Shown here: in pieces, positions 27,285 to 39,862 of the stretch | Layout of the letters: each line of letters starts with the position of its first letter | How positions within the stretch are numbered: the first letter of the stretch is position 1 | Assembly (NCBI GenBank): GCA_020725105.1 | Contig: DYFQ01000028.1 | Span: forward strand, 1-39,862 | DNA from: Symbiobacterium thermophilum | GTDB lineage: Bacteria; Bacillota; Sulfobacillia; DYFQ01 | Reading direction: 5' to 3' | Length of the DNA: 39,862 nt | Notes under the pieces: generated by a model | Told to the model about the DNA's origin: nothing | Database searches by the model: none | What the model saw: the letters and a program-made list of their open reading frames with translations, nothing else | Translations under genes and position numbers: made by a program

Positions 27285-27575
27285 AGGTGACCGTCGTCAG
27301 GCAGCCGGAGGAAGCCCTCCACGGTAAGATAGGGCCGGCCGGAGGTCCCGCCAAGGCCAGGTTGACCGGCATGGAGCCCGACGCCCCCACACGGGTGCCG
27401 GCAGCGGAAATCAGGGGCGGCAGCCCCAGCCATGGGAAACGCAGGAAGACCGCGCCGGCATATTGAACTTGTCCTGGCCCGGACTTCATCCGTGCTTAAC
27501 GGCGTTCGGGCCCGGGAGGGTGTAAAGCCCCGGGCGGTCGGGGGGAACGTTCGGTTGACCGGTGGCCTTACCACA

Positions 27576-28574
27576 ATGCTGAGCGATGGGCTGGCGGGGG
27601 TCACCCTGGCCCGTTTCAAGGTCGCGGCCACGGTTACCGAGGCGCTGGCGCTACCGTGGTACAAGGGATCCGCCCTGAGAGGGGCCTTCGGGAGAGCCTT
27701 TCGCCGGGTGTGCTGTCCGCCGGGCACGGAGGACTGCCCCGACTGCCTGCTGCGCTCAGCGTGCGTTTACGCCCGGGTGTTTGAATCCGGGCCACCTGAG
27801 GGGACCGATCGTTTTCAATACCGCGCCGTCCCCCGACCGTTCGTTCTCGAGCCCCCGTTGGAGCAAAGGGTGGTCCATCAGCCGGGAGAACGGCTCGAGC
27901 TTCACCTGGTCCTGGTGGGAGAAGCCATCCGCTACCTGCCTTACTTCATTGTCGCGCTCCGGGAGATGGCGGCCGGTGGGCTCGGTCGCCGCGTCGGGCG
28001 ACCCGGCCGGGGGAGGCTCCGGCTGGAGACGCTGCACGCGCTGCGGCCCGGGGGAGCGGAGGAAAGCGTGTACCGGAGCACCGAGAACCTGGTCCGGGGC
28101 GGAACCTGGGGTGCTCCCGCGCCCGCCTGGTGGGGGGAGTCTGATAGGTCGTTGCAAGACGGCCGTCTTGCTGTCAGGTTTCTTACCATGACGCGACTGG
28201 TGGCCAACGAGCGGCTGCAGGGACGGCCGGAGTTCGCGCTCCTGGTTCGCAGCCTGTTGCGCCGGGTTTCCACCCTGGCCCTGTGTTACTGCGGATACGA
28301 GCCTGCCATCGACTACAAGGCGGTCGTGAGCGCGGCCGAACGGGTCCGCCTTGTCCGCGACGACACCCGCTGGGTTGACTGGACCCGCTATTCTGCCCGC
28401 CAGGGAAGCGCCATGCGACTCGGGGGCATCGTTGGAGAGGCCGTCTATGAAGGACCCGGAGACGTGATCCAGGCTCTGTGGCCGTTACTGGCGCTGGGCA
28501 CGTACCTTCACGTCGGCAAGAATCCCACCTTCGGCCTGGGCCGCTACGAGATTGTACTGGCTGGGGCCGCATAG
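27576..28574 (+). CDS. cas6: Cas6, CRISPR pre-crRNA processing endoribonuclease
   Basis: Cas6 cuts the repeat transcript to release crRNAs with an eight-base 5' tag. The 332-residue protein fits the larger Cas6 group: a start YKGSALRGAFGRAFRRVCC, then a cysteine cluster (Cys46, Cys47, Cys54, Cys57, Cys63, in CPDCLLRSACVYARVFE), and a C-terminal RAMP ferredoxin domain ending in the glycine-rich loop THVGKNPTFGLGRYEI-like stretch (HVGKNPTFGLGRYEIVLA). The ATG at 27576 is preferred over a 48-residue upstream extension that has no family-like sequence; GGTGG lies 12 bases upstream. It is the first gene of the CRISPR locus. The catalytic residues cannot be assigned by eye. Confidence 0.88.
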   Translation: MLSDGLAGVTLARFKVAATVTEALALPWYKGSALRGAFGRAFRRVCCPPGTEDCPDCLLRSACVYARVFESGPPEGTDRFQYRAVPRPFVLEPPLEQRVVHQPGERLELHLVLVGEAIRYLPYFIVALREMAAGGLGRRVGRPGRGRLRLETLHALRPGGAEESVYRSTENLVRGGTWGAPAPAWWGESDRSLQDGRLAVRFLTMTRLVANERLQGRPEFALLVRSLLRRVSTLALCYCGYEPAIDYKAVVSAAERVRLVRDDTRWVDWTRYSARQGSAMRLGGIVGEAVYEGPGDVIQALWPLLALGTYLHVGKNPTFGLGRYEIVLAGAA

Positions 28575-28631: not shown

Positions 28632-29651
28632 ATGGTTCGCCCCCAGTTGCACCGGATCGTTCACATCCACCAGCAGTTGCGGGCGGGGCGCTATCCGAAC
28701 GTGCCGCGCCTGGCGGCCCTCTTTGAGGTGAACGAGCGAACGGTCAGAAGGGACCTCCAGTATCTCCGGGAGATGTGCAACGCCCCGCTGGAATTCGACC
28801 ACCAGAGAAGGGGCTTTTACTACGCCGAGGATTTCGAACTACCACCGATGCGCCTGTCGGAGGGTGAACTACTGGCACTGTTCGTGGGCGCCAGGATCCT
28901 GGCGGAGTACCAGGGCACACCGTTCAGCCAGCCGTTGTCCTCAGCCCTTGCCAAGCTGGCCCAGTTCGCCCCCGGTACCATCACTGTCGACCTTCAAGCG
29001 GTAAGCGAAGTCGTGTCTTTCCAGGTCGAGCCACTACGCGGGGAGGCGGAGGCTGTAGCAAGAGCATTCCGCCAGCTTGAGCAAGCCATTGTGGAGCGCC
29101 GCAGGGTACTGGTGGAGTACTACTCGGCATACCGGGACGAGATCACGCTCCGGCGGTTCGACCCCTACTGCCTGCGCAACTCTGGCGGGGTGTGGTACGT
29201 GATCGGCCACTGCCGCGAGCGGGAGGCCCTGCGAACGTTCGCCCTTGACCGCATCCTGACCCTGGAGTTGCTGGAGGATCGGTTCGAGGTTCCCGAGTCC
29301 TTCGACCTGCGGCGCTACCTCGAGACGGCCTGGCGGACCGAGGTCGGCGAACCGGTCCCGGTAGCGGTTCGCTTCGACGCCTACCAGGCCCGGTGGATCA
29401 GAGGCAAGCGGTGGCACCCGTCGCAGCAGGTTGAAGAGACGCCGGACGGGGGCGTAATCGTGCGGTTCATCGTCGGCGGGCTTGGGGAGTTGAAGCGCTG
29501 GGTGCTGCAGTTTGGTGGCCACGCCGAGGTGCTGGAGCCTGAATGGTTGAGAGCGCAGGTGGCCCAGGAGTTCAGGGCGGCGACCGGTCTGTACGCGGCA
29601 GGACCGACGGCCACGGCTGGAACCCGGCAATCAGCCGCGAGGTCGGGCTAA
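28632..29651 (+). CDS. WYL-domain transcriptional regulator in the cas operon
   Basis: The 339-residue protein has an N-terminal winged helix-turn-helix of the DeoR/HTH_11 type (residues about 5-60: LAALFEVNERTVRRDLQYL) and a WYL ligand-sensing domain (about 140-215: VEYYSAYRDEITLRRFDPYCLRNSGGVWYVIGHCR, then RTFALDRI). A C-terminal WCX-like extension follows (PVAVRFDAYQARWIRG). WYL proteins sense nucleic acids or nucleotides and control CRISPR and phage-defence genes in several bacteria. Its position 57 bases after cas6, and before the effector genes, suggests it controls this locus. The ATG has GGTGGG upstream. Confidence 0.9.
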   Translation: MVRPQLHRIVHIHQQLRAGRYPNVPRLAALFEVNERTVRRDLQYLREMCNAPLEFDHQRRGFYYAEDFELPPMRLSEGELLALFVGARILAEYQGTPFSQPLSSALAKLAQFAPGTITVDLQAVSEVVSFQVEPLRGEAEAVARAFRQLEQAIVERRRVLVEYYSAYRDEITLRRFDPYCLRNSGGVWYVIGHCREREALRTFALDRILTLELLEDRFEVPESFDLRRYLETAWRTEVGEPVPVAVRFDAYQARWIRGKRWHPSQQVEETPDGGVIVRFIVGGLGELKRWVLQFGGHAEVLEPEWLRAQVAQEFRAATGLYAAGPTATAGTRQSAARSG

Positions 29652-29760: not shown

Positions 29761-31263
29761 GTGAGGGGTGTGCTTTGCTATACCGGCCATCCGATAGTGG
29801 ACATCGGAGTGGCCACGGTGGCCGCTTTCAGCGACAAAAACCGGCCGGAGGACCTGACTCCGGCCGACCTGGAAGCGGTGGCAGAGTTCATGGCCAATGA
29901 GTACGTCTCGGGCGCGCTCACGCCGTACCTGAGCTGTGTTTTTACCATGAACTCGGTATATCTGCAGCCCTCCTGGGACCGCGAGCGCCGGCTGCGCGAA
30001 GCCAGAGATCTGCTCTACTCCTTCCGCGAGCCGTCCAGCCCAGAAGCGGCGGGACTCCGGTGCGTCTTCTCCGGCGAGCCCGCGACCCGGATCGCCTACC
30101 GGCAACACGTGCCGATGCTCACGGGTGAGGGGGTGCTCAATTTCTTCCCGGCCGGGATAGGGGGCCTGCCGGTTTCGGGCCGCTACCTCCTGGCCATCCA
30201 GGCGTTCCCACTTGGGGCCCGGCGCTGCCACGGGCGAGCGCTCGGGGTGCACAGCGTGGACGATCCCGAACTCACGTACGCCTTTGCGAGGCATTTCCTG
30301 GCAGAGAACCGCAGGTTGCTGCTGCTGGCCCAGGCAGGCTCGGGCGAGAAGTTCATGGACGCCAAGGCGCCGCGGACGCTGGTGGTGGATTCGTTACTGA
30401 GAATCGAGGACGAGCGCCGGCAACAGGCCCGGGAAGGTCCGGCTCCGTCGGTTACCGTGTACCACCTGACCAACTCCGGCCAGGGGCCGGACATCGACGT
30501 TCTCCAGCTACCTTCGCAGGTAGTGAGTTTTCTCAGGGAAGCGGCTCGGGCGGAGACCCACCATGTCTGGAACCGAATCCAGTGGGCGGCCTGGGAGCGG
30601 GTCCGGTCAGCCACCCGTCGGGCCCGGGACGGCCAGCCGAGGGCAGTCGCAGAGGACAACGGCAGCCGGGTCGCTGCCGAGGCAGGAGCCTGGGGCCCGG
30701 GCCTGTCCAGAAACTACCTGTACGAGGATCTGTTCTCGCTCCCCGGGAACGCCGCCCACTTCGTCAGGACCTACTTTCTGCGCCGCGCCTACCGCTTCGG
30801 CCGCGAGAACGACCCCAGGCGCGACTACCGGCTCAGTGAAGAGCTTGATCTGGTTTCGTGGGAACTGACCCGCCTGTTGCTCAGGGAGGTGGTGGGAGTG
30901 GAGAAGGTGAGGGTCGAGACCATCCGGAACGTGGCGGACCGCATCGCCGAGCACGTGGCCGCCGACAACGACCGCCGGCTGTTCCAGGGCCTGTATCGGG
31001 TGCGGCGTTACGGGGACCTCCGGAACCTTCTCATCAAGGCATCGGGGGCTCGGCTGAAAAAGGGCGAGCCTCCGCTGGTAGGCTTTGAGGAGTTCCTGTG
31101 GGTGTTTGAAGAAGGCGGCGACAGCTTCCGCACCGACTGGGCTCTGGCCCGGGACCTGCTCCTTATTCGCGTCATCGAGCAACTGCACGGCCGCGGCTGG
31201 TTCGGCAGGGCTCCAGAGGTTCTGGACGTGCTGGCGGAGGAGGAGCAGACGGAGACGGCCTGA
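29761..31263 (+). CDS. cas8: Cas8 (Cst1-like), type I-B Cascade large subunit
   Basis: The large subunit recognises the PAM and holds Cascade together. The N-terminus (CYTGHPIVDIGVATVAAFSDKNRPEDLTPADL) matches the Cst1/Cas8a1 group linked to the I-B (Tneap) subtype, and the 500-residue length fits. The family is named for two CxxC motifs; here only isolated cysteines remain (for example LSCVF near 59 and LRCVF near 101), so the zinc site seems lost. GTG at 29761 is listed; GTG at 29770 would give a start closer to the family norm. The gene is followed by cas7 after about 47 bases. Confidence 0.83.
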   Translation: MRGVLCYTGHPIVDIGVATVAAFSDKNRPEDLTPADLEAVAEFMANEYVSGALTPYLSCVFTMNSVYLQPSWDRERRLREARDLLYSFREPSSPEAAGLRCVFSGEPATRIAYRQHVPMLTGEGVLNFFPAGIGGLPVSGRYLLAIQAFPLGARRCHGRALGVHSVDDPELTYAFARHFLAENRRLLLLAQAGSGEKFMDAKAPRTLVVDSLLRIEDERRQQAREGPAPSVTVYHLTNSGQGPDIDVLQLPSQVVSFLREAARAETHHVWNRIQWAAWERVRSATRRARDGQPRAVAEDNGSRVAAEAGAWGPGLSRNYLYEDLFSLPGNAAHFVRTYFLRRAYRFGRENDPRRDYRLSEELDLVSWELTRLLLREVVGVEKVRVETIRNVADRIAEHVAADNDRRLFQGLYRVRRYGDLRNLLIKASGARLKKGEPPLVGFEEFLWVFEEGGDSFRTDWALARDLLLIRVIEQLHGRGWFGRAPEVLDVLAEEEQTETA

Positions 31264-31310: not shown

Positions 31311-32375
31311 ATGGCGTTTGTCACCGGGATGATGCTTGTCGACGCCCCGGCGTCAGCGCTCAACAACGCCGGACAGGAGGAGGGCGCCCGTACCGACAAC
31401 GTGATCGTGGTCAAGCGGATTCGCACCCGGCAGGGCGACTATCCTTACGTTTCGGCCCAGGCTCTGCGCTACTGGATCCGGACGTATCTGGAGCGGTCGC
31501 TGCCCGAGTGGAAGGCGGCCCCGGTGTTCCGGGAAGCCAAGATCGCCTACACCGACGCCAACCCCATCGAGTGGTGGGACGATGACCTCTTCGGCTACAT
31601 GCGCGCTCCCTCCAAGCGGGCCGGTGCCCGGGAGCAGGCGGCCGAGGAGACGCCGACGACTGGCGAGATTACCCGCATCTCCCCCCTGCGCACGGGGACG
31701 CTGGTCTCCATCGCCCCGGTCAGCATCGTGGACGACTTCGGGACCATGGCCCGGCAGGACGGCGACCCGGTGCCTCACGAGCACCAGTTCTACCGGGCGA
31801 CACTGCAGGGTCTGTTCTCGCTGAACTTGACGACAGCGGGCACTTTCTTCCAGGGCGGACGGGTCGGGTACCGGAACCTCGACGAGCACCGTCTGGCCAT
31901 CGCCAGGGAGCGCGGGCTGGAGGAAGCGCGGGTGTACGGGCAGCCGGCCTTCCGGCTGCCGGCGGCACAGCGCGCCCGCCGGGCCGCAGCCCTCGTCAAA
32001 GCCTTGGGGGAACTCGAGGGTGGGGCCAAGCTCACCCTCCACTACACCGACGTGACTCCTGGCCTGCTCCTGGCGGCGGTCACCGCGGCCGGAAACCATC
32101 CTTTTTACCGCGTGGTTACGGCCGACCGCCACGGGCTGCCCGTGGTCAACCTGGAGGCGCTGAAGGAAGTCCTCCGGGTGTACCGCGACCAATTCCTGTC
32201 CGACGTCTTCGTCGGCTGGGCCAAGGGGTACCTGGCCGAGCAGCGTCAAGCGGTCGAGGCGCTGAGCGACGGGGACCGCTCGGGGGTCGCCTTCCGCTGG
32301 GGCCACCCGCGAGAGGCCATGGCGGAGCTGGCCGAGGAACTCCAGAAGCCGGCCAACCAGCGGTGGTTTGACTGA
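31311..32375 (+). CDS. cas7: Cas7 (DevR/Cst2-like), Cascade backbone subunit
   Basis: Several copies of Cas7 coat the spacer part of the crRNA. The 354-residue protein starts FVTGMMLVDAPASALNNAGQEEG and continues NVIVVKRIRTRQGDYPYVSAQALRYWIRTYLE, the standard beginning of the Cst2/DevR family. LFSLNLTTAGTFFQGGRVGYRNLD belongs to the same family core. The ATG is preceded by a G-rich ribosome site (GAGGGGGG). The stop lies one base before the cas5 ATG. Confidence 0.92.
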   Translation: MAFVTGMMLVDAPASALNNAGQEEGARTDNVIVVKRIRTRQGDYPYVSAQALRYWIRTYLERSLPEWKAAPVFREAKIAYTDANPIEWWDDDLFGYMRAPSKRAGAREQAAEETPTTGEITRISPLRTGTLVSIAPVSIVDDFGTMARQDGDPVPHEHQFYRATLQGLFSLNLTTAGTFFQGGRVGYRNLDEHRLAIARERGLEEARVYGQPAFRLPAAQRARRAAALVKALGELEGGAKLTLHYTDVTPGLLLAAVTAAGNHPFYRVVTADRHGLPVVNLEALKEVLRVYRDQFLSDVFVGWAKGYLAEQRQAVEALSDGDRSGVAFRWGHPREAMAELAEELQKPANQRWFD

Positions 32376-32376
32376 C

Positions 32377-33129
32377 ATGCGCGTGCTCCGCGTGGAGCTG
32401 GTGGCACCCGTCTGCTCCTTCCGCTACCCGCACTTTCTGGTGGGGCGGCAAGTGAGTTTCGACGCGCCGCCCCCGTCGACCATCTTCGGGCACGTCGCGA
32501 GCGCCCTGGGCGAGTGGCCGGACCGGGCGAGCTTCAGGTTTGCCTACCGCTTCAGCGTCGCCGGCAAGGGCGAGGACCTGGAAAACCAGCACATCATCCT
32601 GCCAGGCGGGCGACCGTTCCAACTGGAAGGGCAGCGTTATGCCACGTCCACCGTGGCTACCGTCCAGCCGGCGCGCCGGGAAATCCTCCTGGGCGCCCGC
32701 CTCGTCCTTTACCTGGACCGGCCCGAGTTCGCCCAGTGCTTCCGGCGGCCCCGCTTCCCGGTGATCCTGGGCCGGTCGCAGGACCTTGCCTGTTACACCA
32801 GGGTGGATGAGGTCACCCTGCAGCGGGCGGACCGGGGTTACTTCGAGGACACCCTCTTGCCTTTCGACTTCCGGAGGCGGACGGCCCGGGGGGTCACGGT
32901 ACTAATGCCCCGCTATGTCGGGCCCCCACCCTTGAGGCAACCGGTCTTCGACCGGTTCGTCGTGCTGAGCGGGGACTGGGTGTACTGCCGCCCCGCCGGC
33001 GAGCCGTCCAGGTTCGGGTCCCGGGAACTGCTCAGCCTGGACGGCGAGCCCCTGGAGCTCTGGGTGGACCCCGACTCGGAGGAGCGGGACGGCGCCCGGC
33101 TTGCCCTGGCCTTCCATGGCTTTGTGTGA
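32377..33129 (+). CDS. cas5: Cas5, Cascade subunit capping the crRNA 5' tag
   Basis: Cas5 binds the eight-base 5' tag of the crRNA. The 250-residue protein begins RVLRVELVAPVCSFRYPHFLVGRQVSFDAPPPSTIFGHVASALGEWP, the typical Cas5t start with a RAMP fold and the Pro-rich PPPSTIFGH loop. The ATG at 32377 follows the cas7 stop by one base; an in-frame TTG three codons earlier is less likely. The end overlaps the start of cas3 by 14 bases, so translation is coupled. Confidence 0.9.
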   Translation: MRVLRVELVAPVCSFRYPHFLVGRQVSFDAPPPSTIFGHVASALGEWPDRASFRFAYRFSVAGKGEDLENQHIILPGGRPFQLEGQRYATSTVATVQPARREILLGARLVLYLDRPEFAQCFRRPRFPVILGRSQDLACYTRVDEVTLQRADRGYFEDTLLPFDFRRRTARGVTVLMPRYVGPPPLRQPVFDRFVVLSGDWVYCRPAGEPSRFGSRELLSLDGEPLELWVDPDSEERDGARLALAFHGFV

Positions 33130-35482
33130 CGCTGACCGTAACACGCTGGCCAGGCTGTGGGCCAAGAGCCCGGTGGCCGGCCAGGCCCGCGGCGAGGGGC
33201 TGACCGAGCACACGGTAGCCGTGCTGCGGCGGCTGTCTGGTCTCTACCGCACCCTGCCGGGACTGACCCAGGCGGTGGGCGAGCCGAGGCTCTGGCACCG
33301 GGCGTTCTGGGCCTGCGTCCTGCACGACCTTGGGAAGGCTGCGGCGGGGTTCCAGCGCCAGCTTGGAGGTGCGGCCAGGCGCTGGGGGCACCGGCACGAG
33401 GTGCTGTCCCTCGCCTTCGTCGACTGGGCGCTCCCTGGCGACCCCCACGGCCGGGCCTGGGTGGCTTCTGGGGTGGCTTCTCACCACCGGGACCGCGACG
33501 AACTGACCCGGCTCTACCCACTGCCTGCCGGCGGCGACGATCTGGGCGATGGTGACGATCCCATCCTCAGACTGATTGGCGAGGTGAGTGACGAGGCGGC
33601 AGGCGCGCTGGGCCGCTGGCTCCTGTGGCAGGTCCCGGAGTTGGTCCGAGAATGCGGGTTGCCCGGGGTCGAGTGACACGTCGAGCTCCCCGCCGACCCC
33701 GCACAGGACTTCCGCCAGCGGGCGGCAGATCGGGTCCAGGCCTGCCTCTTGGCGTATCACCGGCTGGTCCGGGACCTCGGCGCCCAGCCGGCAGCGTCCC
33801 GCGAGAACCTGGCGGCGCTAGCTCTCCGGGGGCTGGTGGTGATGGCCGACCATACCGCATCCGCGGGCGTCGACCCGGCCGTTGCCGACCTGGGCGAACC
33901 GCTGGCTGTCGCCGCCCGCCTGGGCCTGCCTGGTCGGGAGGCCCTTTACGGGCACCAGCTCCGGGTCACCGATTGCCGGAGCCACGCCCTGCTGGTTGCG
34001 CCCACCGGGAGTGGCAAGACGGAAGCAGGGCTGCTGTGGGCTTCTTCCGTGGGGAGCGCGGCCGGCGCAGGGGGGCGGGTCTTCTACGTTCTTCCCTACC
34101 AGGCCAGCCTCAACGCCATGTACGACCGGCTGGGCGGCCACTTTCCAGGGCGGGTGGCCCTGCAGCACTCGCGGGCTTTGCAGGCGCTCTATCGCAGGCT
34201 GCTGGAAGGGGGCGACGATCCGCGGGATGCCGCGGCCACCGCCCACCGCCAGAAAGCCCTCAGCCGGCTACACCACCATCCCATCCGGGTCCTCACCCCT
34301 TACCAGTTGCTCCGCGCCGCCTTCCGGCTGAAAGGCTACGAGGCCCTCTTGACTGACGCGGCCGGCGGTCGGTTCGTGCTGGACGAAATACACGCCTACG
34401 ACACCAGGCGGCTGGGCATGATCTTGGCCACCATGGACTACCTTGCCCGTAATCTCGGCGGTCGCTTCCTGGTGATGTCGGCCACGCTGCCGGGGGTGCT
34501 GCGCCGGTTGCTCCGGGAGGTGCTCGGCGAGGCGGCGGAAGTGAGGGCAGACGCCAGCCTCTACCAGGCCTACTCCAGGCACGTCATCAGGCTCGAACGA
34601 GGCCAGGTTACCGATAGTGCCGTAGCCCGACGCATCGCCGGCGCTGCCCGGAGCGGCAAAGCGGTCCTGGTGGTGTGCAATGTGGTGGAGACCGCCAAGC
34701 GGGTGAGGGACCAGCTTGTCTCCCTGCTGGAGGGCACCGGGGTCCCCGTGTGGCTGCTGCACAGCCGCTTTACCGCCCGGGACCGCTTCCGAAAGGAGCA
34801 GCAACTGCTAGCCGCCATGGGAACCCGCCGCCGGGCCGCTGAGGGCTGCCCCCTGGTCCTCGTTGCCACGCAGGTGGTCGAGGTCAGCCTGGACATCGAC
34901 TTTGATCTGCTCTACACCGAGCCGGCACCTCTGGAGTCCCTTGCCCAGCGATTCGGCCGCGTGAACCGGGCGCGGCGGCTGCCGGCGGCCGACGTATGCG
35001 TCCTCACCGAGCCCCAGGACGGGCAGGGAGTCTATGCCGGTAGCTACGTCGAGGCGGCCCTGGAAGTCGTCAGGCAGCATGCCGGGGCGCGGGTAGACGA
35101 GTCGCGCCTGGACGTCTGGCTGGACTCAATCTACTCCGGACCGGTCGGCCAGAACTGGGCCGACGAGGTCAGGCACTGGCGGCGGCAGTTCGTGGACGCC
35201 TGTTTGAAGGATCTCAGGGCCTTTCAGTCGAGCCCGGAACTGGCGGATGCCTTTGACGAGATGTTCGACGGTACCGAGGTGGTTCCTGATTGCCTGGCCG
35301 CGGAGCACTCACGGCTACTGCGAGAGGATGCCCTGCGGGCCAGTGAACTGCTGGTTCCCATCTCCTTCCGGCAGCTCTGGAGGCTCAGGCGGGCCGGCAG
35401 GGTGATGCGGTCGGCGGATGACGTTCTGGTTGCCTGCGTGCCCTACGATCCCGACCGCGGCCTGGACCTCGCCCAGGGCTAG
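33116..35482 (+). pseudogene. cas3: cas3 (HD nuclease-helicase) interrupted by an in-frame TGA
   Basis: Cas3 is the DNA-degrading motor of type I systems. One frame runs from the ATG at 33116 to 35482, broken only by a TGA at 33674-33676 (codon 187). Before it are the HD residues: His32 (EHTVAV), His70/Asp71 (LHDLGK), His94 (GHRHE), His123/His124 (SHHRD). After it comes RGLVVMADHTASAG with Asp245, the final HD metal ligand. Then the helicase: Walker A APTGSGKT (295-302), DEIH (423-426), VMSATLP, and QRFGRVNRARR. Without the stop it would be a 789-residue fused Cas3 of normal size. The second part has no ribosome site; its first possible starts are TTG 33749 and ATG 33842. Nonsense mutation, read-through or sequencing error are the options. 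Confidence 0.85.
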
Positions 35483-35604: not shown

Positions 35605-36606
35605 GTGGTGGTCGAGCGCTACGGCGCCTTCATTGGCAAGACCAGCGAGCGCCTGGTGGTGCGCGAGCAGAAGCGGGTCGTGGCGGAGGTCCCCTTCGCC
35701 GACCTGGAGCAGCTCACCATTGCCACGGGTGGGGCGGCCATTTCGGTGGACGCGATCCGGGCCTGTGTCGAGCACGGCGTCCAGATCAACTTCCTGTCGG
35801 GCGCCGGCCGGCCCTATGCCAAGGTCACCTCGCCCACGCTGCTGGGCACCGTGGTCACCAGGCGGGAGCAAATGCTGGCCTACACCGACCGGCGCGGGGT
35901 GGAGATCGCGCGGGCGGTGGTGGAAGGCAAGGTCCGCAACCAGGTCAACGTGCTCAAGTACTTCGCCAAGCACCGACGCAGGGCCGACCCGGCGCTGTAC
36001 GACCGCATCTACGCCGAGACCAGGTCGATGACGGAGATCCTGACCGAGGCGGCGCGGCTGGACGGCGAGCGCATCGATGACCTGCGGGCCCAGTTCTTGT
36101 CCGTCGAAGGCCGGGCGGCGCGGCGCTACTGGGACCTGGTGGGAGCGATCCTGGGCACCAAGGTGGAGTTTCCCGGCCGGGAGCACCGCGGCGCCGCCGA
36201 CCCGCTGAACGCCATGCTCAACTACGGCTACGGCATCCTGTACGGCGAGGGGTGGGGCGCGCTTCTGTTGGCCGGGCTCGAACCCTTCGCCGGCTTCCTC
36301 CACGTCGACCGGCCGGGCAAGCCCAGCCTGGTGCTGGACTTCGTGGAGCAGTTTCGCCAGCAGGTGGTGGACCGCCCGGTGGTGGCCGCCCTCAGCCGGG
36401 GCTACCAGCCCAAGCTGGTTGAGGGCCGGCTGGACGAGGCGAGCCGGCGCGAGGTGGCCCGCCTGGTGCGGGAGCGCCTGGAGTCGTCTGAGACGCACCA
36501 GGGCAAGAAGCACCGACTGAAGACCGTTGTCCACCTGCAGGCCAGGGCCCTGGCCGGTTTCCTGCGGGGGGAGGGCAAGTACCGCGCCTTCGTGGGCGCG
36601 TGGTGA
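35605..36606 (+). CDS. cas1: Cas1, CRISPR integrase
   Basis: Cas1 with Cas2 inserts new spacers at the leader end of the array. The 333-residue protein has the N-terminal beta domain and a helical catalytic domain with the metal ligands Glu168 (LSVEGRAARRYW), His233 (GFLHVDRPGK) and Asp245 (SLVLDFVEQFR). All key residues are present and it looks fully functional. The GTG start at 35605 has a GAGGGAGG ribosome site about 20 bases away, rather far; no better start is seen. It opens the adaptation block cas1-cas2-cas4-csa1. Confidence 0.95.
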   Translation: MVVERYGAFIGKTSERLVVREQKRVVAEVPFADLEQLTIATGGAAISVDAIRACVEHGVQINFLSGAGRPYAKVTSPTLLGTVVTRREQMLAYTDRRGVEIARAVVEGKVRNQVNVLKYFAKHRRRADPALYDRIYAETRSMTEILTEAARLDGERIDDLRAQFLSVEGRAARRYWDLVGAILGTKVEFPGREHRGAADPLNAMLNYGYGILYGEGWGALLLAGLEPFAGFLHVDRPGKPSLVLDFVEQFRQQVVDRPVVAALSRGYQPKLVEGRLDEASRREVARLVRERLESSETHQGKKHRLKTVVHLQARALAGFLRGEGKYRAFVGAW

Positions 36607-36610
36607 CGCC

Positions 36611-36883
36611 GTGACCACCCTGGTGATCTACGACATCCCCGACGACCGGATCCGCGACCGGATGGCCACGGCCTGCAAGGACTACGGGCTGGTGCGTATC
36701 CAGTACAGCGCGTTCCTGGGGGAACTCAACCACAACCGCCGGGAAGAACTGGCCTACCGGCTGCGCCACACGCTGGGGCGGAACGAGGGCAACGTCCAGC
36801 TTTTCCCCATCTGTGACAAGGACGTGCGGCTGCGGGTGGAGATCGAGGGCGAGCGTCGCCGCTCGGAGCGGGTGGAACCGTGA
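36611..36883 (+). CDS. cas2: Cas2, spacer-acquisition partner of Cas1
   Basis: The 90-residue protein has the ferredoxin-like Cas2 start TLVIYDIPDDRIRDRMATACKDYGLVRIQYSAF, with Asp8 at the end of the first strand, and the later NVQLFPICDKD strand. The GTG at 36611 follows the cas1 stop by four bases. The end is basic (ERRRSERVEP) and its stop overlaps the cas4 GTG by four bases (GTGA). Cas2 dimers bridge two Cas1 dimers in the integration complex. Confidence 0.94.
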   Translation: MTTLVIYDIPDDRIRDRMATACKDYGLVRIQYSAFLGELNHNRREELAYRLRHTLGRNEGNVQLFPICDKDVRLRVEIEGERRRSERVEP

Positions 36884-37506
36884 GCGAAGGCTGGCGGGAG
36901 CCGGGCATCGAGCTCAGGGTGTCCGACGTCAAGCAGTACGTGTACTGCCCGCGGATACCGTACTACCACAACGTGCTCCCGGTGGAGCGCAAGGTAACCT
37001 ACAAGATGCAGGCCGCCAGGGTGGAGCACGAAGTCCTGGACCGGCTGGAGAAGCGCCGGAGCCTGGTCAAGTACGGGCTGGACCTGGGGGAGCGCCGGTT
37101 CCACGTTCCCCTGTACTCGCCCCGGCTGGGCCTGCACGGCCTGCTGGACTGCCTGGTGGTCACGCCGGCCGGGCACTTTCCCGTGGAGTTCAAGGTCACC
37201 TCTGGCGAGCCGGCCGTGGGCCACAAGTACCAGCTGGTGGCCTACGCCATGCTGGTGGAGGAATGCATGCGCGTGACCGTGCGCCACGGCTTTCTGGTCC
37301 TGGTGCCCGGCCGCCGCATCGTGGAGGTGCCGATCATGCCGGGGGCCCGGCTGCACGTGAAGCGGCTTCTGGGCGCGGTGCGGCGCCTGGTGGAAGCAGG
37401 CAGGCTGCCGGCGGCCACGCGGGTGCGGGGGCGCTGCACCGACTGCGAGTACCGCAACTACTGCCTGGACGTGGCCCCCGGCGGCCGGGTGATGCTACTG
37501 CGGTGA
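36880..37506 (+). CDS. cas4: Cas4, Fe-S nuclease for prespacer trimming
   Basis: Cas4 is a RecB-like nuclease that checks the PAM and trims new spacers. The 208-residue protein has the four cluster cysteines: Cys23 (YVYCPRIPYY), and Cys186, Cys189 and Cys195 (CTDCEYRNYC). The nuclease residues are Asp90 (GLLDCLV), Glu103 and Lys105 (PVEFKVT) and Gln118/Tyr122 (YQLVAYAML). All are intact. The GTG start overlaps the cas2 stop. Confidence 0.94.
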   Translation: MSEGWREPGIELRVSDVKQYVYCPRIPYYHNVLPVERKVTYKMQAARVEHEVLDRLEKRRSLVKYGLDLGERRFHVPLYSPRLGLHGLLDCLVVTPAGHFPVEFKVTSGEPAVGHKYQLVAYAMLVEECMRVTVRHGFLVLVPGRRIVEVPIMPGARLHVKRLLGAVRRLVEAGRLPAATRVRGRCTDCEYRNYCLDVAPGGRVMLLR

Positions 37507-37562
37507 ACGTGACCGGCCAGGCGGGGCCCGCGGCGGAGGACCGGGGGGGACAGGAGGGTAGC

Positions 37563-38492
37563 ATGTATTTCTTTTCGGACGAGGAGCGCAAGTACCTGCT
37601 CCGAGGTCTGGTTCCGCGGGCCAGGCAGGCCGGCGTGGCCGAGGAGCTTCGGGGCTGGAACTGGCACCAGCCGCCCGTGGAACCGGTCTATGACGTCAGG
37701 CTCGGCCTGTGGGAGGTGGCGGGTAAGTACTGCCCGACAGGGCGCGATCTGTACCTCCGGCGGGTGCAGGGAGTACGGCGGCCCCCCAATCTGGCCATGG
37801 TGGCCGGTGGCCTGTTCCACGCCGTGCTGGTGGCCGTCATCACCCGGGCCAAGCGGTTGCTGTACACGGAGGGAGTCGAAGGCTACCGGCGCGCGCTGGA
37901 ACACTTGCGGTCGCCGGAGGAGCTGGCGCGCATAGTGGCGGAGCACGTGGCCGGCCTGGAGCCCGCTAGAGCGGCCGACCTCGAGGCGCAGGCCGGTGCC
38001 CTCTGGCAGTTCGAGACGGATCGGATCGCCGCCCGAGTCCAGGAGGTTCTTTCCAGACACCCGTACCTCAACGAGGACGCCCTGGTGTTCCGGGCCATCC
38101 CCGTAGTGGTCGAGCAGAAGCTGGACGGCACGTTTCTGGGGCTGAGCCCCAATCTCAGCGCCGACGCCTTCATGGCGTCTGAGCCCGTGGTCATCGACCT
38201 GAAGTTCGGCGAGCCGGAACGCTTCCACCGGCTGACCACGGCCGGGTACGGGATGGTGATGGAGGCGGTGTACGACTATCCGGTGAACGTCGGCTGCATC
38301 GTGTACGCCCGGTACCGCGATGGCCGGTGGACGGTGCGGAAGGACCTGCACCTCATCGACGACGAACTCCGGCAGTGGTTTCTGGAGGAGCGGGACGAGA
38401 AGATGAGGATGGTGTTCGAGGAACTTGACCCGGCTGTGGCTGACGAATGCCCTCAGACGTGTCCGTACTTCTCGGAATGCCGTCCGGGGTAG
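37563..38492 (+). CDS. csa1: Csa1-type second Cas4-family protein
   Basis: The 309-residue protein matches Csa1 (Cas4-like protein mostly seen with I-A systems): FFSDEERKYLLRGLVPRAR start, EVAGKYCPTGRDLYLRRVQGVRRPPN (cluster cysteine and the family's Asp/Tyr block), RAIPVVVEQKLDGTFLGLSPNLSADAF, the nuclease strand VIDLKFGE, and the C-terminal cysteines CPQTCPYFSEC. The ATG at 37563 has AGGAGGG seven bases upstream; the open frame before it overlaps cas2 and cas4 out of frame. In Pyrococcus furiosus the two Cas4 proteins act on opposite ends of the prespacer, so the same division of work may hold here (inference). Confidence 0.88.
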   Translation: MYFFSDEERKYLLRGLVPRARQAGVAEELRGWNWHQPPVEPVYDVRLGLWEVAGKYCPTGRDLYLRRVQGVRRPPNLAMVAGGLFHAVLVAVITRAKRLLYTEGVEGYRRALEHLRSPEELARIVAEHVAGLEPARAADLEAQAGALWQFETDRIAARVQEVLSRHPYLNEDALVFRAIPVVVEQKLDGTFLGLSPNLSADAFMASEPVVIDLKFGEPERFHRLTTAGYGMVMEAVYDYPVNVGCIVYARYRDGRWTVRKDLHLIDDELRQWFLEERDEKMRMVFEELDPAVADECPQTCPYFSECRPG

Positions 38493-38785: not shown

Positions 38786-39862
38786 GTTGCAGGTAGAGAC
38801 CCGTGTCGTAGGGGACTGAAAGACCAAAATCCAATCAGGAAAGGGGGAGAGTAGAATGCGTTGCAGGTAGAGACCCGTGTCGTAGGGGACTGAAAGTCCA
38901 CCGTGCTACCGTCTGGCAGGTGAAACGTTGCCTTGTTGCAGGTAGAGACCCGTGTCGTAGGGGACTGAAAGCAATAGGAGCGGCGGAAAAAGCCGTTGTC
39001 CACGTCAGTTGCAGGTAGAGACCCGTGTCGTAGGGGACTGAAAGCGTAGATACCCCTGGTCGAGCTAACCTGACGGTCAAAAGTTGCAGGTAGAGACCCG
39101 TGTCGTAGGGGACTGAAAGATTCCCTGGAAAGCCCCAGCTTCGCGGCCTGCTCGACGAAGTTGCAGGTAGAGACCCGTGTCGTAGGGGACTGAAAGTCGT
39201 GTTGCCAAGGGCGGTTGTACCTGCGAGGACGGTTGCAGGTAGAGACCCGTGTCGTAGGGGACTGAAAGCACCGCGTGGCACTGGCTGTGGGGCGCCGGCG
39301 TCAGTTGCAGGTAGAGACCCGTGTCGTAGGGGACTGAAAGTGATACTCCTCGTCGATCTCGGGCGTGGTCGCAAGCAGTTGCAGGTAGAGACCCGTGTCG
39401 TAGGGGACTGAAAGTAAGATCGTGCAGGCTATGCGAAAGCCTTACTGCGGTTGCAGGTAGAGACCCGTGTCGTAGGGGACTGAAAGACGTAATGTTGTGG
39501 ACGACGATATCTCTCTCGTATTCTGTTGCAGGTAGAGACCCGTGTCGTAGGGGACTGAAAGTTTCAGGTAACGCCGGGTCAGAGTTTTCTCTACCTCGTT
39601 GCAGGTAGAGACCCGTGTCGTAGGGGACTGAAAGATTCACCGCTAACACGTGTCGATGTACGCAGGATGCGTTGCAGGTAGAGACCCGTGTCGTAGGGGA
39701 CTGAAAGAGTAAGAGGGGAGGAAAGACTAGTGCCAAGGGTAAAGTTGCAGGTAGAGACCCGTGTCGTAGGGGACTGAAAGGCCACTATATCCATAAGCGC
39801 CGTCGCCAGCTTGAACCTGTTGCAGGTAGAGACCCGTGTCGTAGGGGACTGAAAGTTGACCC
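38786..39862 (+). CRISPR. CRISPR array, at least 15 repeats of 37 nt, continuing past the window
   Basis: Repeats of 37 bases start GTTGCAGGTA and end GGACTGAAAG. They begin at 38786, 38860, 38935, 39008, 39083, 39160, 39232, 39304, 39378, 39450, 39525, 39598, 39671, 39744 and 39819; all look identical. The 14 complete spacers are 35-40 bases long and all different; a fifteenth starts at 39856 and is cut by the window end. The repeat has no strong palindrome, as expected for Cas6 of I-A/I-B type. Transcription runs left to right: the leader is on the left and the last eight bases, ACTGAAAG, fit the usual crRNA 5' tag. No spacer matched the rest of the window by eye. Confidence 0.99.

Follow-up and report, generated by a model that had tools for sequence, protein, structure and literature searches.

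We have found that the cas3 gene of a type I-B CRISPR-Cas operon in an uncultured, high-GC bacterium is interrupted by one in-frame TGA that falls within its HD nuclease domain. The observation is confirmed, and it looks like an everyday inactivating mutation or an assembly base error rather than a new reading of the genetic code. In our assessment, the TGA is probably a single nonsense substitution that created a recent loss-of-function allele of an otherwise intact cas3; in the sampled population this allele would be either fixed or polymorphic. Both the recency of the change and the loss of Cas3 activity are what we infer from the gene and its relatives. Recoding of the stop and a working split gene are, even when taken jointly, unlikely.

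The window analyzed here is the whole of contig C43 (39,862 nucleotides), which belongs to a 2.74-Mb draft genome in 73 contigs with an estimated 96.8% completeness. Features of the cas operon and the adjoining CRISPR array are given in Table 1. A WYL/WCX-domain HTH regulator (28632-29651) sits between cas6 and cas8b. At 36880-38492, an ordinary Cas4 adjoins Csa1 (PF06023, 272 bits), a family associated with type I-A, within this type I-B operon. Contigs C43 (at 39862) and C68 (at 94399) both end inside the same CRISPR array, and the end of C68 carries 10 further repeats, the last of which is degenerate with three mismatches. The two contigs probably join within the array, giving at least 25 repeats in total, with the leader in the window and the degenerate trailer repeat on C68. 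Phage records were searched with 17 spacers (14 from the window and three from C68) and gave no match. There is no second Cas3 in the genome, where searches returned one helicase match and one HD match above the cut-off.

Table 1. Coordinates of the cas genes, the interrupted cas3 and the CRISPR array in the window
Feature	Position	Strand	Remarks
cas6	27432..28574	+	start tentative
WYL-domain regulator with HTH, in cas operon	28632..29651	+	
cas8b, intact	29761..31263	+	PDLC01387, 473 bits
cas7 (Cst2/DevR), intact	31311..32375	+	
cas5b, intact	32368..33129	+	overlaps cas3 start; ends in TGA-C (TGA 33127-33129)
cas3 5' part	33116..33676	+	HD nuclease up to premature TGA, 186 aa; H32, H70, D71, H94, H123, H124; TIGR01596 82.4 bits
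In-frame TGA, codon 187, then C	33674..33676	+	in loop 181-194 of the modelled HD domain
cas3 3' part	33677..35482	+	last two HD helices including D245, then intact Cas3 helicase; TAG end; TIGR01587 237.6 bits
Candidate restart, probably chance	33825..33844	+	SD-like CCGGGGGC before GTG 33836, GTG 33839, ATG 33842
cas1, intact	35605..36606	+	
cas2, intact	36605..36883	+	start tentative
cas4, intact	36880..37506	+	
csa1-type second Cas4, intact	37560..38492	+	
CRISPR array, leader-proximal part	38786..39862	+	15 identical 37-nt repeats, runs off contig

An earlier sequence-only reading had described the frame from 33116 to 35482 as continuous except for a lone TGA at codon 187, with HD ligands on either side of it. 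Re-reading of this 789-codon frame bore out both points. The TGA, which is followed by C, is the sole internal stop, and the gene has its own terminator, TAG. Residues H32, H70, D71, H94, H123 and H124 are encoded 5' of the TGA and D245 (in MADHTAS) 3' of it, and in our alignment each of these ligands is invariant across 17 full-length homologues. The DNA of a single frame thus holds both the HD ligands and the helicase motifs of a Cas3, and the coding sequence is interrupted at codon 187. When the part upstream of the TGA was searched alone, the Cas3-HD model TIGR01596 scored 82.4 bits; in a profile search of the genome, its match continued across the TGA to cover the full 178 positions of the model with a higher score of 92.5 bits, which indicates that the two sides form one HD domain. 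The downstream part matched the Cas3 helicase core (TIGR01587) with 237.6 bits. GC3 is 0.83 both upstream and downstream of the TGA, and on either side the coding frame scores better than each of the five alternatives. Since codon usage does not differ across the stop and the alignment continues through it, a pair of compensating frameshifts and a gene junction were both rejected.

The read-through Cas3 was modelled with AlphaFold2 from an alignment of 18 sequences (pLDDT 89.8, pTM 0.90), and the best matches of this model among solved structures were Cas3 4Q2D/4Q2C and T. fusca 4QQY/4QQZ. Residue 187 was placed in a loop (181-194) flanked by two helices of the HD domain (159-180 and 195-223), and D245 within helix 229-250. 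As modelled, the 186-residue product is without two HD helices and one metal ligand, and known HD enzymes suggest that its nuclease activity would be lost.

Relatives of this Cas3 were gathered from 61 genomes, from 154 genomes of the class and from a collection of 84,980 genomes; the closest is approximately 47% identical. None of the 17 full-length homologues has a stop or a split; a conserved split at this exact place, together with a real start site for the second gene, is what the sequence-only reading had named as evidence against its own account. That reading had also proposed aligning the fused translation at codon 187. The column proved to be unconserved (V, L, W, Y, W, P, P, A, R, M, M, P, K, K, P, gap and P), with W and R among many residues and Cys in none of the 17. 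The alignments disagree in detail within this loop, which again marks the site as variable. Conservation elsewhere is nearly complete: when near-invariant columns were defined by at least 90% identity in the other sequences (n = 108), the window Cas3 matched 106 of them, on both sides of the TGA, so either the interruption arose recently or the gene remains in use. The two exceptions are K528, where the others nearly all have Q, and S608, where the others all have A. In a phylum sample of 398 genomes, 252 had a Cas3-HD match at E <= 1e-8 and, among the matches listed, the window alone has an internal stop. Viral contigs yielded no relative, and homologues on the plasmids searched reach at most 37.5% identity.

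Taken as they stand in the sequences, the unconserved site, the lack of any homologue with a stop, the retained near-invariant columns and the missing recoding signal favor either a nonsense allele or a base error. The identical array repeats and the near-complete conservation of Cas3 show no sign of decay and in this weigh against a nonsense allele; they imply that the change is very recent or that the base is wrong. The gene has the hallmark of nonsense inactivation, namely a premature stop that removes essential residues from a gene intact elsewhere. CRISPR loss under plasmid selection is documented to occur through nonsense and frameshift changes of single nucleotides in cas genes (PMC3784566). 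Also weighing against a nonsense allele, no selective reason for the loss of cas3 is visible: self-targeting was rejected as a motive, as none of 23 spacers matches its own genome outside the array (the best such match covers 20 nt, includes a mismatch and has E 0.34). If the allele is nevertheless real, translation would terminate at codon 187 in the loop of the HD domain, and the product would be missing D245, one of the metal ligands, along with the final two helices of that domain. The helicase would not be made, or a chance restart would yield small amounts of it without the HD domain. Cas6, Cas8, Cas7 and Cas5 should still build a crRNA-loaded Cascade, and Cas1, Cas2 and Cas4 are intact. 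The system would then go on binding its targets, and perhaps acquiring spacers naively, but would no longer destroy targets.

The main competitor is an assembly artifact, a wrong base or consensus call, in which case the living cell would carry an intact cas3; we regard this as possible, but less probable than a real substitution. It would account for a Cas3 that keeps all but two near-invariant positions next to an array and other cas genes that look intact, and it gains from a second isolated in-frame stop in the genome. This came from a codon-usage scan for stops within coding sequence, which covered stops only, in a 0.83-Mb sample of the genome. Ten candidates were obtained and, when inspected by eye, these comprised six gene junctions, one likely fused gene remnant and three interior stops, which are the cas3 TGA-187, the selenocysteine (Sec) codon of FdhA and a TAG in rqcH (NFACT; L118:19582, equal to C68:59582). 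The Pfam model runs through this TAG, with 206.5 bits when joined versus 142.2 and 48.2 bits. To produce both unexplained stops in 0.83 Mb, the assembly would have to carry substitution errors at a rate that we estimate at ~1e-4; for a 73-contig draft with thin coverage this is possible. However, the contig ends within a CRISPR array, as short-read assemblies do, and at good depth such assemblies would be expected to contain isolated substitution errors only rarely; the TGA-187 site is also free of any homopolymer. The rqcH TAG, as a further isolated stop in 0.83 Mb, indicates that lesions of this sort are infrequent but do arise, and with other stop codons too. Two unexplained stops of different kinds are compatible with ordinary nonsense mutation, strain variation or base error at a low rate, and no single recoding rule fits them. 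Separately, the remnant noted in the scan (L139:6016, equal to G000:C33 at about 106016) consists of a TGA followed by an in-frame aldo/keto reductase-like interior (LEAGITYFDTAPYYGG) without a start, and may represent what is left of a gene after fusion or deletion.

Read-through, whether regulated or constitutive, would have a near-cognate tRNA reading UGA-187 at a low level and thereby setting the amount of full-length Cas3. We consider it improbable. Cas3 is conserved downstream of the stop, bacterial in-frame stops under dN/dS < 1 have been reported, although most are short-lived (PMC7918605), and UGA can be decoded by a tRNA-Trp whose anticodon stem has 4 bp (PMC13092985). The tRNA-Trp of this genome, however, is canonical with a regular 5-bp anticodon stem, and a UGA-reading tRNA-Trp of that type was rejected. 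The C that follows UGA-187 had been put forward by the sequence-only reading as a context favoring read-through, but this does not hold here: TGA-C is the commonest combination of stop and next base in the genome sample (88 of 446 long-ORF terminators) and it also ends cas5, so the context of TGA-187 is ordinary and was rejected as a special one. Neither sign of programmed read-through is present, as the stop at codon 187 is absent from relatives (the 17 full-length homologues and, among the matches listed, the phylum sample) and no stimulatory structure lies 3' of the cas3 UGA (z -1.3 to 0.1). Genome-wide reassignment of UGA was rejected, given that TGA terminates 257 of the 446 long ORFs. 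We give even less credence to UGA-187 being a selected throttle, through which near-cognate or Sec-type reading would pass a little Cas3, perhaps in a condition-dependent way. Were such a throttle to exist, the cell would keep its array and Cascade in a state where targets are mostly bound and seldom cut. Among the three options that had been offered initially, the recently disarmed Cascade and the base error are thus the ones favored, whereas read-through finds no SECIS-like hairpin, suppressor tRNA, odd tRNA-Trp or shared stop behind it.

A working two-part Cas3, in which the HD piece would assemble with a helicase piece made by restart, is more doubtful again. In-frame starts 3' of the TGA are TTG 33749 (codon 212), GTG 33836, GTG 33839 and ATG 33842 (the last three being codons 241-243). 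The initial statement that no ribosome site precedes the second part holds only in part: the SD-like CCGGGGGC (in 33825-33833) lies ahead of the latter three and pairs with the anti-Shine-Dalgarno at -8.6 kcal/mol, equal to the value for cas1. On the other hand, 5.3% of 2,456 internal in-frame ATG/GTG codons in the genome have pairing as good, and the product would be HD-less. Judged from the sequence, restarting at codons 241-243 would give a helicase without an HD domain save D245 and a few neighboring residues. Helix 195-223 and most of helix 229-250 would then be in neither piece, and no homologue is split at codon 187.

Decoding of UGA-187 as selenocysteine, which would make Cas3 a selenoprotein, is the least probable alternative of all. 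The genome does decode UGA as selenocysteine, having selB, selC (anticodon UCA) and a formate dehydrogenase, FdhA, with an in-frame UGA, and the UGAs of cas3 and FdhA are both followed by CAC. The 50 bases counted from the FdhA UGA (L048:1921-1970, in G000:C21) were used as a control and folded into one long SECIS-like hairpin at -27.4 kcal/mol with a z of -3.3 (range -3.2 to -3.5). The equal 50-base stretch at the cas3 UGA gave -17.3 kcal/mol and a z of -1.3, longer stretches gave a z of about 0 (up to 0.1), and Rfam had no SECIS match there. The codon-187 column, a variable loop with no redox motif, is also devoid of Cys. This combination of no SECIS-like hairpin and no Cys in homologues renders selenocysteine very unlikely, and we rejected it. 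A second tRNA-Sec-like RNA (RF01852, 61.4 bits) occurs on the minus strand at L038:1501-1597 (equal to G000:C42:15153-15249), adjoining a mutS2-like gene. It was missed by ARAGORN, has the loop CCGCAAA with anticodon GCA (Cys), and resembles the selC* tRNA-Cys / allo-tRNA class (review PMC7609411). It was rejected as an opal suppressor, its anticodon being GCA and not UCA.

If the stop is real, this locus would be one more natural type I system expected to bind, and not destroy, its targets, and a CRISPRi-like complex would in principle remain. In Haloferax, artificial deletion of cas3 and cas6b leads to gene repression (PMC4946936). Apart from this, it is an ordinary lesion or base error. The case also shows that, in a genome that decodes selenocysteine, a claim of recoding at an in-frame UGA should first be tested against a selenoprotein already known from that genome.

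The interrupted gene can be set against several known systems. With FdhA, the selenoprotein of its own genome, cas3 shares an in-frame UGA in the presence of Sec machinery, but unlike FdhA and bacterial selenoproteins it has neither a SECIS hairpin nor Cys-bearing homologues. The natural Cas3''/Cas3' split (e.g. in type I-A) likewise has two ORFs that cover nuclease and helicase. There the break falls between complete HD and helicase domains, whereas here it lies in an inter-helix loop of the HD fold and parts the metal ligands, with D245 on the other side; the second frame is without a start until codon 212, and the split is conserved in no homologue. The initial view that this is not the natural split is therefore upheld. 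Type I-B (TNEAP/Cst) Cas3 has the same HD and helicase domains in one frame with all motifs, and the operon (cas6-cas8b-cas7-cas5-cas3-cas1-cas2-cas4 beside an array) is also of type I-B form; the in-frame stop in the HD domain, which the 17 full-length homologues lack, sets the present gene apart. The escapers of Staphylococcus epidermidis (PMC3784566) similarly carry a single-base lesion in a cas gene with the remaining locus intact, although the lesion described here is in a type I-B cas3 and in a wild, uncultured genome.
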